Below, piece after piece: positions 3,931 to 19,517 of a DNA stretch of 22,536 bases. The notes under the pieces are model-generated. The model made no database searches and was not told the DNA's origin. It worked only from the letters and a program-made list of their open reading frames with translations. The stretch's first letter is position 1. The number at the start of each line of letters is the position of its first letter. Source of the DNA: a virus; IMG/VR virus record IMGVR_UViG_3300032208_000071, positions 1 through 22,536 of that record; one strand, given 5' to 3'. A program made the translations under genes and the position numbers.

Positions 3931-5297
3931 TCTTGGCAGTCACAGGTAGGTTCTTTTTCATTAAGTAAATCTGCAAGGTAGTCGTCTACATCCTGTTGAT
4001 CAAGAGCGGCATACGCATCAGATTTATCTTGTGTATCACTCATAACTTGGAGCGAATAATACAAGGAAGTCTGGGGACTCTTTAGCCACTCTTCGATAAA
4101 GGCGTTGTCATAGGTGACAACATCACTCCAGCTATTGAAGCTATACCCGTGAAGAAGCCCAGTGCGATCGAGCATCGTCATCATACCATCAGCCACACGC
4201 TTGTAAGCGTCCCAGCCGACCTCTGATGCGATCTCTACATCGCCATAGAAATATGATTGGACACCAAAGGTGCCACTGTCCCGGTCAACGACACGGGAGA
4301 TAGGTGGTGCAATCTCAGGAGTGCAGGTGAAACCATCTACATCCTTACTGCGGTAGCTACAGCTTGCAGTAGGAGCGATTGCGAAAGCTCGGTCCATCGT
4401 GTAACTGCGTGCGATGCTTGCAGCAGAGTCGATGCCGGAAGCGAATTGAGAGACCAGCTCGAATGCAGGTGTCTGGACAATCTCGCCATCGTTGTATTGT
4501 TCAAGTGCACGTCCAAATTGTTCATAACTAACACCTACACGTCGAAAGAGATTTGCAAGTCCGAGCATTCCAAGGCCGACTTGCCGGTCTGTTTCGGGTG
4601 AGAGGTATTCACCACTCGCACCAACTCCAGTGGTTGCATGCAGTGCACACAGTTCAGACATACCTTCGACGAAAGCTCTTGGAATGTCATCGAACTCACA
4701 GGCTCCAAGATTAACATGCTGTAGGAGACAGGTTCCTCTGCTAGGCAGGTACACTTCGAGACAAACGTTGCCTCGAATACGGTTGCCTTTTTTGTCATAC
4801 TTTACTTTGTTGAGCCAAATGTCACCGGACTTAATGCCATTGAGTAGTTCCTCCTTAAAAGAACACGCCTCCCACCATTCATCTGTAATGTTGATGCATC
4901 GTTTAGCCCAAGGTAGCTCATGACGTGGAGCTTGTATAAACTCAAGAGCATCAGCGTGGCACAGGTCCAAGTGCAGGACCACAGCACCATTTTTATAGAC
5001 TCCACCACGTCGGAGTACAGAGTTAAGGGTCGAATAGATTTGGCCAAATGAAACCGGGCCGCTAGCGACAAGTCCCTTTCCATTTTCAGTTCCTTTCGGG
5101 CGAAGTTCGGACAGGTGGATAGCAACTCCCGCTCCATTCCTCAGAGCATGTGACGCAAAGCGCCAGCTAGCTTCAATACCTTCTGGACCCTCACAAGAGT
5201 CATCAACTTTAAAGATTGTGCAGCTGACAGGCAGGCGGGAAGTTGGGTCATCGATCCAGTTTTGGACGCGACCAGTACGGGAGATGAGATCAGACAT
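3927..5297 (-). CDS. nrdA: Class I ribonucleotide reductase large subunit (alpha), minimal form
   Basis: A 456-residue catalytic subunit, much shorter than E. coli NrdA (761) because the ATP-cone and other N-terminal regions are absent. Active-site residues are visible: Cys26 (LPVSCTIF) and Cys190 (GTCLLQ) as the probable redox pair, and Asn177-x-Cys179-x-Glu181 (GNVCLE) for substrate activation. Tyr413-Tyr414 (SLYYSLQ) matches the radical-transfer pair that marks class I enzymes, and the tail ends in a CxC (Cys452, Cys454) for re-reduction. Without an ATP-cone, overall activity may escape dATP inhibition, which would suit a phage making DNA. It is coupled to the beta gene and supplies deoxynucleotides for replication. 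Confidence 0.92.
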   Translation of the reverse strand: MSDLISRTGRVQNWIDDPTSRLPVSCTIFKVDDSCEGPEGIEASWRFASHALRNGAGVAIHLSELRPKGTENGKGLVASGPVSFGQIYSTLNSVLRRGGVYKNGAVVLHLDLCHADALEFIQAPRHELPWAKRCINITDEWWEACSFKEELLNGIKSGDIWLNKVKYDKKGNRIRGNVCLEVYLPSRGTCLLQHVNLGACEFDDIPRAFVEGMSELCALHATTGVGASGEYLSPETDRQVGLGMLGLANLFRRVGVSYEQFGRALEQYNDGEIVQTPAFELVSQFASGIDSAASIARSYTMDRAFAIAPTASCSYRSKDVDGFTCTPEIAPPISRVVDRDSGTFGVQSYFYGDVEIASEVGWDAYKRVADGMMTMLDRTGLLHGYSFNSWSDVVTYDNAFIEEWLKSPQTSLYYSLQVMSDTQDKSDAYAALDQQDVDDYLADLLNEKEPTCDCQE

Positions 5298-10849: not shown

Positions 10850-11411
10850 CGTCTGCTCCTTCGGTGGTGGTGGTTGGGGTGATGTTTGGGTCTCCTGCTT
10901 TGAAACCCTGTGTTTTGCCAAAAAGTTCTGCAACATCGCTATCGCTCAGGTCGCCAGTGTCAACACCAGCAGCACTACTCAGAGCAACAATCTGAATGCC
11001 TACGCATTTCAGTGAGGTGCCATAGGTGACATTATCTTTGAGAATGTACGGCTTTTGGTAAAAAGCAATCTTGACTTTAGATCCACTGTAGAGAGGCGTA
11101 TCTATATCTGTAACAGGTGAACCTTCAGTATCTACAACAGGTGGTTTAGTCTCTTCATTCCAAGAGAGTTTTGTTTTGTATTTACCCTCAGACACTTCTT
11201 CCCAAGGTGCAAGCTTAAGAACGGATCGCTTTGGGTTCTTTAGTTTTGATTCAGCCCATTTAAGGGTTTCAACTCGATCATCTTCAAGTTGTTCTACTAA
11301 CTCTGTATCTAGAATAACAGAAATTGAATAGCCAAACTTGGAAGGCTTCAGCACAGCCTGATAACCCTCCAGGACTACAGGCTCTTTAGTGACGAAGGTG
11401 GTTCGTGCCAT
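10839..11411 (-). CDS. Single-stranded DNA-binding protein, T7 gp2.5-like
   Basis: A 190-residue protein from ATG 11411. It has a beta-rich OB-fold-like body (for example GYSISVILDTELVEQL and KVKIAFYQKPYILKDN) and a flexible acidic tail ending GADDDF; an acidic C-terminus ending in an aromatic residue is the hallmark of T7 gp2.5, which uses it to contact DNA polymerase and helicase. It coats exposed single strands and promotes annealing. The ATG overlaps the RNA polymerase TAA (TAATG) and has no Shine-Dalgarno, the bases just upstream being a run of eight T, so coupling to the polymerase gene seems likely. Confidence 0.85.
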   Translation of the reverse strand: MARTTFVTKEPVVLEGYQAVLKPSKFGYSISVILDTELVEQLEDDRVETLKWAESKLKNPKRSVLKLAPWEEVSEGKYKTKLSWNEETKPPVVDTEGSPVTDIDTPLYSGSKVKIAFYQKPYILKDNVTYGTSLKCVGIQIVALSSAAGVDTGDLSDSDVAELFGKTQGFKAGDPNITPTTTTEGADDDF

Positions 11412-13753
11412 TAACAAAAAAAATAGGTTGATTCAATCACCGATGACGGTTCAAGGTCACCGATGATCGGTGGTTTGGTTGTTGCGCCGACTTGCTCGGC
11501 CCATTCATTCAGATAGTCATGCTCCGCAAAAAGGTGCATGTAAGTTTCTCGTACGATTGCTGACAAAATAGACATATCACTACTGCGGCATAGAACCGAG
11601 TCGTGTATGAGGGCCAGCGGAGCGTCAAAGCGGAGCGCAGATATGTGGAGTAGACTAGCATCAAGTGAGTGGATAAGGTTGGGTGCGGTTGCGTTCTTGT
11701 GATGTAATAGATCTACTTCTTCTGACGCGCCAACTGCAACTGATACTTTTTTAACACGACCCAGAAGTTTAAGTTGTACTTCTTCTACCGTTGGTTTCAT
11801 CAGCCGTTGGGTGACTGTGAAGCCTGATGGTGTAGTCCATGTAAGTTCAGTTGCACCTGCTTTGATCAGCTCAGCAACAGTGGACTCAATCCACTTCATG
11901 ACAGCCATAGGACCAGGAACGACCTCATCCATAGCCTGACGCACAGCAGAGACAACCTGGGTTAGTACCTCATTGTGTACCTCCACGTTCTTCTCTGCCA
12001 GTGCATCCCTAATATAGCCACGATTGCTGAAGGGCTTCGCATTGTAAGGAACTGTCATAACTGTACGTTTCGTACATTTTCTGTCCCAGACATCATGAAG
12101 ACACTCAGGTATGTTTGGCTTACTAGCGTCTGCAATCACCTTGTAGGCGTCTTGTGGTTTGTCACTAGGGATGACATTAACAAGCTTAGCCGTTGATGCA
12201 TCTCGTGCAAGCCCAGCCAGGATTTGCAGACCAGAGCAGGTCGCATCCACAGCAATAGGCAGACCAGTGTAATGACGATTACAAGAAATGACACAAGCAT
12301 AGTACTCCTCACATGCAGCTAGGAACTGAAACGGTTCGTCCGCTACTTCCCATTCATGTAAGTTACCAATGGGATCTGTAGCTATCTTTTCTATCAGTGT
12401 GTGATTGTTCTCTACCCACGAGATACGTTCTTTGATGGGTGACTTGTCGAGTCCGTATTGTGTAGCGACATGGAACTTAAGCCAGTCAACTGCTACTTCA
12501 TCGACAAAACTCTCAACATAGAATCTCAATAGTGACTTACCGAAGTCAGTATCTTGTGGTGTGAGAAATGCAGACACAGGGTATGTCCTCCCACGATAGT
12601 CATAAGACCATGGTAGATAGAACTTATCATAGACCTCAAACCTACGCACACATTCCATTGTCATGCGTGTCCTTACACACTTTTGTGTCTGGATACGGTT
12701 GTGGTTCTCTACATCCCTGCGTCTACGTTTATACTCACGTTTAGCTTCTTCATTTGTGTCAATGTCAAGTGGTTTGTTTGGTAGTTCTTGGATGTCTGTT
12801 TCTGGTATGAATTTACCAACAGTACGTCCCTTCTTTTCCAGTTGTTTTGCGACATCAACAACAAATCTATTCAGGGTGAAAGCCGTTTGCTGAATCTTGT
12901 TCAGGAACCGGTAGGTGGTTTCCCCCTGTATAAGTGGGGACCCTCGCCGAACCATGTCATGTTCACGCATAACCTCGTTGGAAAGGTAGCCACCAGCTGT
13001 GTCTTCTGTCCAGTCATTTGGTGGAATCAACATAGGCCACGTCAAGAATGCGTGGTCTTGTAACTCCTTAAACAACTGCTGCTTTGCGTCTGCAAAATAT
13101 GCGGTCGGTATCAGATAAGTAGTGGTTTTCTTATTGGTACGCATGATAACCGTTTCAAATAGGTTAGGCTCTTGCCTCAGGATGCAGTCAAGCAACCAGT
13201 TGCCAAGCCTAACACGGATGATCGGTCCCCATTTCTTCCAATGGTATCCATTCCGCTCAAGCATGATGCGTGCATCCTTGTAGCGCTGCTGTGTGCCCGC
13301 TGCAGAGTGCCAGTACTTTTTGACCACGTAGTTCATCAAGCCAGGTGCAACACGCTCATAGTACCTGATCTGACACTCCTGTTCGATAGCAGTGCCGATT
13401 GATTTCTGAATGCTTACAAGTTTGTTAGCATCCTCAACAAGGCTGAACACTTTGTCAAACGTAACTTTGAGTGCAATACCCGCACAGGCAAGGTCTTCCA
13501 AGTCATTGAGATAGTTAATAATCTCAATAAAGTATTGACCGTTGCCACGTCCTAGCTTGTACTCACGCTCACGCTTGATCGTGTCACACACAGCTGGCAG
13601 GTAAGTGTTCATGAATGACTGAGAAGTCACAAGAGATGAAGCATACTCACGTGCCAATGCTTTGTCTTCTTGTTTACGAATCTTAGTGGCTCCTTGTGCT
13701 AGTGCATCACGCTCCAGCTGCCACTGCTTCTCGATCTCAGTCTCAGGAATCAT
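11411..13753 (-). CDS. Single-subunit DNA-directed RNA polymerase, T7 gp1-like
   Basis: A 780-residue T7-family RNA polymerase (T7 gp1 is 883). Catalytic Asp503 lies in AVDATCSGLQ (T7 Asp537); Lys562 and Tyr570 in CTKRTVMTVPYNAK (T7 Lys631, Tyr639); Asp718 in LALIHDSVLC (T7 Asp812). DYRGRTYPVSAFL at 385-397 is another family landmark. It transcribes middle and late phage genes from its own promoters. The C-terminus is YFFC rather than the T7 FAFA. Codons 270-277 contain a 24-bp element also found after the terminase gene, a candidate promoter. The ATG overlaps the TGA of a 39-codon gene upstream (ATGA). Confidence 0.96.
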   Translation of the reverse strand: MIPETEIEKQWQLERDALAQGATKIRKQEDKALAREYASSLVTSQSFMNTYLPAVCDTIKREREYKLGRGNGQYFIEIINYLNDLEDLACAGIALKVTFDKVFSLVEDANKLVSIQKSIGTAIEQECQIRYYERVAPGLMNYVVKKYWHSAAGTQQRYKDARIMLERNGYHWKKWGPIIRVRLGNWLLDCILRQEPNLFETVIMRTNKKTTTYLIPTAYFADAKQQLFKELQDHAFLTWPMLIPPNDWTEDTAGGYLSNEVMREHDMVRRGSPLIQGETTYRFLNKIQQTAFTLNRFVVDVAKQLEKKGRTVGKFIPETDIQELPNKPLDIDTNEEAKREYKRRRRDVENHNRIQTQKCVRTRMTMECVRRFEVYDKFYLPWSYDYRGRTYPVSAFLTPQDTDFGKSLLRFYVESFVDEVAVDWLKFHVATQYGLDKSPIKERISWVENNHTLIEKIATDPIGNLHEWEVADEPFQFLAACEEYYACVISCNRHYTGLPIAVDATCSGLQILAGLARDASTAKLVNVIPSDKPQDAYKVIADASKPNIPECLHDVWDRKCTKRTVMTVPYNAKPFSNRGYIRDALAEKNVEVHNEVLTQVVSAVRQAMDEVVPGPMAVMKWIESTVAELIKAGATELTWTTPSGFTVTQRLMKPTVEEVQLKLLGRVKKVSVAVGASEEVDLLHHKNATAPNLIHSLDASLLHISALRFDAPLALIHDSVLCRSSDMSILSAIVRETYMHLFAEHDYLNEWAEQVGATTKPPIIGDLEPSSVIESTYFFC
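11416..11445 (-). terminator. Weak terminator-like hairpin at the end of the RNA polymerase gene
   Basis: On the minus strand the last RNA polymerase codons read GGTGAT-TGA-ATCAACC, a six-pair stem with one bulged A, followed by TATTTTTTTT. A short stem plus a run of eight T looks like an intrinsic terminator, but the stem is weak and the T run is also needed to encode Tyr-Phe-Phe. It may attenuate transcription between RNA polymerase and ssb, or be chance. Confidence 0.25.
12921..12944 (-). promoter_or_regulatory. Candidate phage RNA polymerase promoter inside the polymerase gene
   Basis: On the minus strand this reads AGGGTCCCCACTTATACA, then G, then GGGGA. It matches 17737-17760 at 23 of 24 positions, 18 of them contiguous. 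The shape (ACTTATACA followed by a run of G and A) recalls T7-class promoters, where CACTATA precedes GGGAGA. It points towards ssb, endonuclease I and the replication genes. It lies inside codons for RGSPLIQGE of the polymerase, so it would start a transcript lacking a full polymerase gene. The repeat is seen; promoter function is inferred. Confidence 0.6.
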
Positions 13754-16323: not shown

Positions 16324-16499
16324 GACTCAATCCCTACGGTCCAGCCCATGCGGTCCAGGACAATGGTTCGAGCCACGCCGTTAGCGTTGCACAGGTCAGA
16401 GGCTAACTGTAGTGCCTCCATCAGGTCGCTGGTTGCGGCCTTGTGTTCCCATACGTCACGGGTTGTGCGTTGGATCACGGTATAGGTCTGATCTTCCAT
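16320..16499 (-). CDS. Small early protein (59 aa)
   Basis: From ATG 16499 the protein begins MEDQTYTVIQRTTRDVWEHK and has an alpha/beta layout ending GVARTIVLDRMGWTVGIES. An in-frame ATG at 16517 would add six residues and overlap the previous gene; neither has a clear Shine-Dalgarno. The stop overlaps the next ATG. Two strands with a central helix (SDLMEALQLASDLCN) suggest a compact fold. No family recognised. Confidence 0.68.
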   Translation of the reverse strand: MEDQTYTVIQRTTRDVWEHKAATSDLMEALQLASDLCNANGVARTIVLDRMGWTVGIES

Positions 16500-17664: not shown

Positions 17665-17683
17665 ATGTCCATTCAGCGGACAT
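17665..17683. repeat. Perfect hairpin ATGTCC/GGACAT
   Basis: A six-pair inverted repeat with a seven-base loop (ATGTCC, ATTCAGC, GGACAT). No T run follows on the minus strand, where an A-rich stretch comes next. It is the second of two hairpins between the candidate promoter and the next gene, and may be a leader structure or replication-related element. Confidence 0.45.
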
Positions 17684-17686
17684 AAG

Positions 17687-17712
17687 TAAAGGGGAGAGTT
17701 TTATGTCTCCCC
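17687..17712 (-). terminator. Hairpin GGGGAGA/TCTCCCC, possible phage-type terminator
   Basis: On the minus strand a perfect seven-pair GC-rich stem (GGGGAGA, eight-base loop, TCTCCCC) is followed by TTTACTT. The T tail is short and interrupted, weaker than a textbook intrinsic terminator, yet T7-type terminators also have such form. It lies about 25 bases after the candidate promoter. It may end terminase transcripts or protect a 5' end. Confidence 0.45.
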
Positions 17713-17736
17713 AAACACAAGAGGAGTCCACCCTTC

Positions 17737-17760
17737 TCCCCTTGTATAAGTGGGGACCCT
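17737..17760 (-). promoter_or_regulatory. Candidate phage RNA polymerase promoter / right-end origin (phiOR position)
   Basis: On the minus strand this reads AGGGTCCCCACTTATACA, then A, then GGGGA, running on as GAAGGG. It is the second copy of the element at 12921-12944 (23 of 24 identical). T7 has promoter phiOR just after gene 19, next to the right end, where it serves transcription and replication. This copy begins two bases after the large-terminase stop, the same place. The purine-rich GGGGAGAAGG downstream resembles the start of T7 transcripts. The sequence identity is certain; function is inferred. Confidence 0.62.
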
Positions 17761-17762
17761 GG

Positions 17763-19517
17763 TTAAACCCAGTTAGCAACTGATGTCTTACCTCTTGCTT
17801 GTCTTTGTTGTTCTGCGGTCATACCAAACACGAGGTGGTTGGCTGATTGTTGCGGGTCTTCTATAAATGCTTCTAGCATTTGGTTCCACTCTTCACGTTT
17901 ACGTGCTTTGATTTCTTCCATTGCGGAAATACCAAAAGCATCTGTAAAGTATTTAACACCTTGTGCTAGACAGTCTATTCTATCGTCGTGTCTTACTGCG
18001 CCTTTTTCACGGCACATGCGGCTCATTTGGTAGAATAACATGTAGAGAAGACGCCGTTCAGGTGCCTCATCGGGGTTAGATTTGTAATCCCAGTCAATGA
18101 CGCTACGATCAACAACCAACCGATGTTGGTTAAGAATAGGCTCCAAAGCATCGATGATACGATCTTCTTTTCGTACGTTTGCACGTGTTTCCTCAATACC
18201 AATGTTCATTGAAAGGTTTTGGATGTGTTTTTTAAACAGTTCTCCAACAATGCCATCACCAAAGTTACTTTCAATAAGGAGTGTAGAAGCTTTGTACTTT
18301 TTACAACCTTTTAGAATGTCCAGTAACGTGTTGTCTGAGTATCCATCCTTGTAAGCTCGCATTTCATGCAAGTACAAAAAACCATTTCGCTGGGAGATAT
18401 AAGCTGCTGTCGTCTCATCCGAGCCTCTACCCGATGGATCAACTGAGCAGATTGTTTCGGCGTAAGGTAACCATTCGCCTTGGAGCTGCATTGGACTGTA
18501 GAAATAATCTCCAGGTAGTCCGACAGTTGGCGCATCTTTGATGACGTTTTGGGGGTCTGAGCACCAGATGATTGACTCAGGACACTTATCAGGGTTAACG
18601 GAAGTAACGATAAGGTCAGCCATTTTAAGCGGGAATTTTTCTGCATCACTTAAACTTGTGTCTAACATGAACTGGAGCAGGAAGTTAGACCTACCCATGG
18701 CCGCTTCACGCTCAATTAGGTCTTCGTGGTCAAATCTATCGTCAGTTACGTCCCAGGGTTCCACTCCTCCGTCAATGTCTTCTTGGAGTTGTGGGGCAAG
18801 TAATCCTTCATAATTACTGGTTTTACGGGGATAACGTGCTGGCCACACGAAAGGGCGATAATTCCGTTCTGCCAATTTGCGATAGACCGTAAAAACCGTT
18901 TGGGGAGTTCCTAGGAACATGATCCGGCTATCATCTTTAGGCGTAAGAATAGATTCGGCTTCTGTACAAAGTTGCAGGAGTTTTTCCCGCATAAGTTCTG
19001 TCATCGAGTTACCAGGAACTTCGATGTCATCGAGAATCATAAGGTCTGCGCGGCTGCCAGTCAATTGGCCAGTAATCCCTACGGATTTGACGGATGGGGC
19101 TTGGTGGGGAGAGCAGTTTACGTCGAAAGAGATCCGACTCCATCTGGCGTCGTCGCTCTTCGGCCTCAAATGAGTCAACCATGGAGTTTCAATAATCAGC
19201 TTTTGTAGGAAGATTGACATATTATCTGCACGCTCTTTTGATGCGGAGATAATCATTATTTTCTTTTCTGGATTATTAAACAAAGTCCAAAGCACGAAAG
19301 CGCCAGTAATCCAAGACTTACCGACGCCTCGAAAAGCTTGTATTTGTAGACGCTTAGGTCCATTTTGTAGATAGTCTGCAATTGCGTATTGTGCGCGTGT
19401 GGGTGAAGGAAGGTCAAGCTGCCCCCACAAAGCCTGTAGGAACAGCTTAAAGTCGGCTTGCATAGCATCGACTACCGAGACCTCTTTCACCGCGCTAGAG
19501 CGGCGTTTACGGGGCAT
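17763..19517 (-). CDS. terL: Terminase large subunit (DNA packaging motor), T7 gp19-like
   Basis: A 584-residue protein, nearly the length of T7 gp19 (586). The ATPase domain has Walker A FRGVGKSW at 62-69, Walker B LMILDD at 159-164 and the coupling motif FLGTPQT near 201-207. The nuclease domain has Asp360 (CSVDPSGRGSDETT), Glu416 (LLIESNFGDG) and Asp511/Asp512 (VRHDDRIDC). It cuts concatemers and pumps DNA through the portal using ATP. It follows small terminase by several genes, an arrangement looser than in T7. A candidate phage promoter begins right after its stop. Confidence 0.96.
   Translation of the reverse strand: MPRKRRSSAVKEVSVVDAMQADFKLFLQALWGQLDLPSPTRAQYAIADYLQNGPKRLQIQAFRGVGKSWITGAFVLWTLFNNPEKKIMIISASKERADNMSIFLQKLIIETPWLTHLRPKSDDARWSRISFDVNCSPHQAPSVKSVGITGQLTGSRADLMILDDIEVPGNSMTELMREKLLQLCTEAESILTPKDDSRIMFLGTPQTVFTVYRKLAERNYRPFVWPARYPRKTSNYEGLLAPQLQEDIDGGVEPWDVTDDRFDHEDLIEREAAMGRSNFLLQFMLDTSLSDAEKFPLKMADLIVTSVNPDKCPESIIWCSDPQNVIKDAPTVGLPGDYFYSPMQLQGEWLPYAETICSVDPSGRGSDETTAAYISQRNGFLYLHEMRAYKDGYSDNTLLDILKGCKKYKASTLLIESNFGDGIVGELFKKHIQNLSMNIGIEETRANVRKEDRIIDALEPILNQHRLVVDRSVIDWDYKSNPDEAPERRLLYMLFYQMSRMCREKGAVRHDDRIDCLAQGVKYFTDAFGISAMEEIKARKREEWNQMLEAFIEDPQQSANHLVFGMTAEQQRQARGKTSVANWV

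Follow-up and report, generated by a model that had tools for sequence, protein, structure and literature searches.

A predicted phage RNA polymerase promoter with a conserved +1 hairpin follows the terminase gene in T7-like cyanophages

The short element that begins two bases past the stop of the large terminase gene (terL) in a T7-like cyanophage fragment is very probably a promoter for the phage's own RNA polymerase (RNAP) with a selected hairpin at +1, an estimate drawn from sequence that does not extend to the element's role. We are highly confident that the predicted promoter is of the known kind, that of phage Syn5, with a sequence of its own. The conserved +1 hairpin with its terminator looks new and seemingly undescribed, and it would give a short structured RNA whose function we infer below. 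The window, the whole 22,536-nt stretch analyzed here, is a 22.5-kb virus record whose genes lie on the minus strand; its terL is 73.9 to 85.3% identical to cyanophage records among the matches listed. Its relevant features are as follows.

17763 to 19517, minus strand: large terminase gene terL (584 aa; Pfam and PHROG terminase matches)
11411 to 13753, minus strand: phage single-subunit RNAP gene (780 aa)
17746 to 17760, minus strand: predicted phage RNAP promoter, −15 to −1 by analogy with Syn5, AGGGTCCCCACTTAT (from the RNAP-gene copy, place, and covariation)
12930 to 12944, minus strand: predicted partner promoter within the RNAP gene, in the codons just before Ile275 (putative +1 at 12929)
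17717 to 17745, minus strand: 5′-terminal hairpin of the predicted transcript, 10-bp stem and 9-nt loop (from the fold; arms covary across relatives)
17727 to 17734, minus strand: nearly invariant 8-nt loop AGGGTGGA (237 of 243 elements)
17688 to 17712, minus strand: terminator-like hairpin with a short run of T, where a short RNA is predicted to end (from the fold and relatives)
17665 to 17683, minus strand: third small hairpin, ATGTCC...GGACAT (in many, not all, relatives)

Paired sites in the RNAP gene and after terL

The element occupies positions 17737 to 17760, where the first-pass annotation had placed it, and reads AGGGTCCCCACTTATACAAGGGGA on the minus strand. A second copy inside the RNAP gene (12919 to 12942) is equal at 22 of 24 positions, a match seen in 0 of 100 dinucleotide shuffles. 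For Syn5 RNAP, a 15-bp promoter has been proven, and the accessible part of PMC3950665 states that the Syn5 genome has only two promoters, including one inside the RNAP gene. The Syn5 record contains exactly two copies of this 15-mer; the copy at 4929 falls within the RNAP gene, and that at 44797 comes 6 nt past the terL stop. The window pair stands in the same two places, with near-identical sites in the RNAP gene and after terL, and the predicted 15-bp site likewise lies immediately before +1. The window block (AGGGTCCCCACTTAT) differs from the Syn5 15-mer (ATTGGGCACCCGTAA); therefore, we class it as a variant of the Syn5 kind and not as the same site. Identity to the Syn5 15-mer appears to be unneeded for a Syn5-type promoter, each RNAP seemingly having its own block. 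A sigma-70 scan of the element area returned 2 sites (3.3 expected).

The pair was present in 22/22 isolates examined, although weakly in S-SRP01, and in 38/39 metagenomic contigs carrying both genes, so that the earlier expectation of a conserved element after terL in related phages held. A whole-genome scan recovered the pair in 17/17 isolates; the S-SRP01 pair was the weakest (18/24) and equaled its own best shuffle, yet it lay at the right codon. Within the Syn5 group, S-CBP42, SS120-1, and P60 have the pair at 20/20 positions and S-CBP2 at 19/20. We looked for the pair in an outgroup, Mesorhizobium phage Lo5R7ANS, and found none. S-B28 and 7B11-B have a third promoter-like copy (42334 and 41290, respectively; minus strand), some 1.3 kb beyond the one at terL, and S-CBP2 has one at 16393, inside the class II ribonucleotide reductase gene. 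Some public records have broken or split frames, possibly from sequencing errors: that of terL near 26689 in S-CBP42 (locus L410) and those of the RNAP gene in P-SSP3, S-CBP3, P-SSP6, NATL1A-7, and S-TIP37.

Matched turnover and covariation with the RNAP

The recognition block is highly variable between phages, and the two copies within one genome match. The comparison of block copies covered 58 genomes or contigs: the window, Syn5, 17 isolates, and 39 contigs from IMG/VR. In each, the RNAP-gene site was located by protein alignment and not by resemblance. The 39 contigs were those with both genes present, 13 from 38/80 terL loci and 26 from 42/80 RNAP loci. On average, the 12-nt block matched its own partner at 10.97/12 positions versus 7.76/12 for the partners of other genomes, and 0 of 20,000 block-partner permutations reached the observed mean (45 distinct blocks). 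For 42 of these 45 blocks, the genome's own terL region was the best match or tied for best. The sole pair with unlike blocks (7/12) was found in G032, taken to be a recombinant or chimeric contig, which carries loci L157 and L186 and whose RNAP gene is cut by the contig end.

The RNAP-gene copy of the block also covaries with the polymerase. We computed corrected mutual information between RNAP columns and block positions across 90 distinct RNAPs, excluding residues 266 to 280, which the block itself encodes. Among the top 20 columns, 13 fell within residues 64 to 70, 205 to 212, and 658 to 669 (1.64 expected), with relatedness reduced but not removed and with region borders fixed in window numbering after a first look at the covariation. 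When the set was thinned to 39 nonredundant RNAPs (under 85% identity), the three regions still accounted for 11 of the top 20 columns; columns 177 and 117 rank high outside them. Mapped by alignment to T7, these regions correspond to the AT-rich recognition loop, intercalating hairpin, and specificity loop of T7 RNAP. Their respective block partners (Syn5 numbering) were at about −14/−15, −5 to −7, and −7 to −10, the order of the T7 contacts. Covariation with promoter-reading residues and the identical place of the proven Syn5 promoter strongly support the earlier reading of this site as a phage RNAP promoter. As a separate matter, we dropped the idea that the RNAP-gene copy encodes the intercalating hairpin, because it aligns with T7 residues around 300.

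The +1 hairpin and the predicted short RNA

Of the two copies, the terL copy alone runs on, from the putative Syn5-type +1, into a hairpin with a conserved loop. We place this +1 at 17745 by analogy with Syn5, and it could be off by a few bases. The GGGGAG of the element pairs with CTCCTC to form the hairpin from 17745 to 17717 around the loop AGGGTGGA. The first-pass annotation had missed this hairpin, and its account held neither the conservation of the structure nor the matched turnover with the RNAP-gene copy. It had pointed to a GC hairpin within 25 bases and to its repeat of GGGGAGA. This GC hairpin (GGGGAGA...TCTCCCC, 17712 to 17691) lies 25 bases past the element and is followed by TTT; the repeat is there as described, but it is less telling than the GGGGAG/CTCCTC hairpin.

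Both the loop sequence and the pairing of the stem are conserved. Among the 243 elements, AGGGTGGA forms the loop in 237, TGGGTGGA in 3, and AGTGGTGC in 2, and 1 element has no such loop; all five Syn5-group phages have AGTGGTGC, and S-SRP01 is without the loop motif. As RNA, the loop would read AGGGUGGA, or AGUGGUGC in the Syn5 group. Across 188 distinct arm pairs, left after one loopless element and one that was too short were dropped, hairpin arms paired with their own partners gave −16.42 kcal/mol versus −11.82 kcal/mol for swapped arms (0 of 5,000 permutations). Among 8 forms that align without gaps, 98.4% of cells are paired (slid controls, 30 to 69%) and 3 of 8 pairs change on both sides, although in this small set 2 of 5 measures were no better than shuffles. 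RNAalifold, run on a plain MAFFT alignment, did not recover the 5′ hairpin; the pairing it returned instead showed no covariation. Model R1 was used only as a sequence profile, because it carries the wrong RNAalifold structure; it had one match each in 15/21 genomes (the set being the window, 15/17 isolates, and the five Syn5-group phages) and none in P-SSP6 or the five Syn5-group phages. The RNAalifold pairing had raised the possibility of a pseudoknot or antiterminator between the loop and the terminator arm, which we dropped because the Syn5-group loop does not fit it.

In the viral contigs read, wherever the upstream gene could be told, the hairpin came directly after terL. Scanning for the pattern gave at least 120 matches, and 118 of the 119 loci read have terL directly upstream (2 to 103 nt); the contig of the remaining locus is too short to tell the upstream gene. 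Rfam 15 covariance models gave no match to the window up to an E value of 1. No report of the hairpin or of a small RNA after terL was found in the accessible literature searched, and neither the +1 hairpin nor its loop is mentioned in the accessible part of PMC3950665.

Downstream of the hairpin, a second one with a T-rich tail was found in 176 of 206 distinct elements, leaving 30 with no recognized terminator, versus 11 of 241 with mononucleotide-shuffled downstream sequence. In the window, its stem spans 17712 to 17691. With a GC hairpin followed by T, it resembles T7-type intrinsic terminators; however, Syn5 RNAP read through the T7 terminator tested (accessible part of PMC3950665), and the terminator-like hairpin may therefore fail to halt the RNAP of the window phage. 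The hairpin and terminator after the terL copy predict an RNA of about 55 to 70 nt. The third small hairpin of the window (17683 to 17665) recurs in several relatives with an altered stem. A GTGGATTGCGGTGA-like sequence lies between the terL hairpin and the terminator in four Syn5-group phages (L173, L410, L411, and L412) and was not found in the non-Syn5 group.

We also considered pairing of the loop with another phage RNA. On both strands, the loop 8-mer occurs once in 17/22 genomes, the single occurrence in S-SRP01 not being at the element; counts are 4 in S-TIP37, 2 in SS120-1, 3 in P60, 6 in S-CBP2, and 0 in S-RIP2, whose own loop is TGGGTGGA. A perfect 8-nt complement is absent elsewhere in most genomes, making a phage mRNA target by perfect pairing unlikely, and we rejected an antisense role of this type.

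Possible roles at the right end of the genome

In our proposal, the single-subunit RNAP encoded by the phage reads a pair of promoters, and the element is the right-end one of the two. The promoter in the RNAP gene would transcribe the middle and late genes, and the right-end promoter would fire just past terL, at about 17745. At its 5′ end the transcript would form a blunt hairpin, in which selection appears to act on both the stem pairing and the loop sequence, and it would reach the terminator-like hairpin about 55 nt on, with some read-through toward the genome end. Given these two hairpins, the most likely product is a short structured RNA with some read-through. It had been suggested that the element drives the two genes at the end of the genome; because the terminator-like hairpin stands between, it could do so only via read-through.

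The place of the element also agrees with that of T7 phiOR, as the first-pass annotation had held: the T7 record has phiOR at 39229, 99 nt after gene 19. Like phiOR, the window element is, by place and pairing, a predicted phage RNAP promoter just past the large terminase gene. The two differ in sequence, and the T7 phiOR transcript is without a similar +1 hairpin. T7 promoters are also many (15, according to the accessible part of PMC3950665). Our leading proposal for the role, which fits the position, is phiOR-like right-end transcription aiding replication or concatemer processing, and we hold it tentatively, at somewhat under even chances. Rather less firmly, we suggest that the terL copy may encode small RNAs of about 55 to 70 nt that form a family not yet described. 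The phage RNAP would make them in most such cyanophages, and their 5′ hairpin would display AGGGUGGA or AGUGGUGC to a host RNA or a protein. Such a trans-acting RNA may serve, for example, in packaging, in RNAP control, or against host RNA decay. The two proposals are compatible, and both can hold.

A stricter phiOR reading, the one put forward in the first-pass annotation, shares the promoter with our own and treats the RNA only as a primer or R-loop, with transcription starting DNA replication or marking concatemer cutting. It is possible, if doubtful: the element has the place of T7 phiOR and, in Syn5 and P-SSP7, is found after terL and ahead of the right terminal repeat, but the distance to that repeat exceeds 1 kb (1,181 nt for Syn5; 1,151 nt for P-SSP7, whose 206-bp terminal repeat is experimental according to the accessible part of PMC3350473). 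A terminator-like hairpin within about 55 nt also argues against this reading, as does the lack of a similar +1 hairpin in the T7 phiOR transcript, and the conserved loop is left unexplained.

We consider it unlikely that the element is a regulatory leader, in which the promoter would serve the gene after terL and the hairpin and terminator would set read-through. The order of promoter, structure, terminator, and gene is a common leader layout, and by record annotation the gene soon after the element is thyX in 12 of the 22 isolates and talC in 5. However, 5 isolates have neither, and the next gene in the window (17640 to 17407) encodes a 77-aa phrog_703 protein of unknown function, with relatives in 16 viral contigs. 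The element tracks terL and not the downstream gene, and no conserved alternative structure was found. That terL is constant in front while the gene behind varies favors a right-end function over the serving of one gene.

Two readings without promoter function fare far worse. It is very improbable that the element is only the 3′ end of a late operon, such as a double terminator or an RNA-processing signal: two hairpins and a T run do follow terL, but the RNAP-gene copy, the matched block turnover, and the covariation with RNAP contact residues would be unexplained, and the Syn5 copy is a working promoter sequence (accessible part of PMC3950665). That recombination keeps the near-identical copies within a genome alike, or that they are left over from a mobile repeat, is the least credible, as the shared stretch is only about 20 nt, always lies at the same codon and on the same side of terL, and changes along with the RNAP.

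A promoter with a selected +1 hairpin, read by the phage's own RNAP, would mean that a promoter for the polymerase can be predicted in every sequenced cyanophage of this type. A 2024 screen lists, for the P-SSP7 and S-CBP42 enzymes, predicted promoters quite unlike these, and 8 of 26 pairs were active overall (accessible part of PMC11475235); the strings it gives for these two enzymes have no exact occurrence in the P-SSP7 and S-CBP42 genomes. The covariation offers a readable link between RNAP residues and promoter bases, and a promoter inside the RNAP gene, which must change along with the enzyme encoded there, is a neat case of constrained coevolution. If the +1 hairpin is made as a short RNA during infection, it would be a new phage RNA in abundant ocean viruses.
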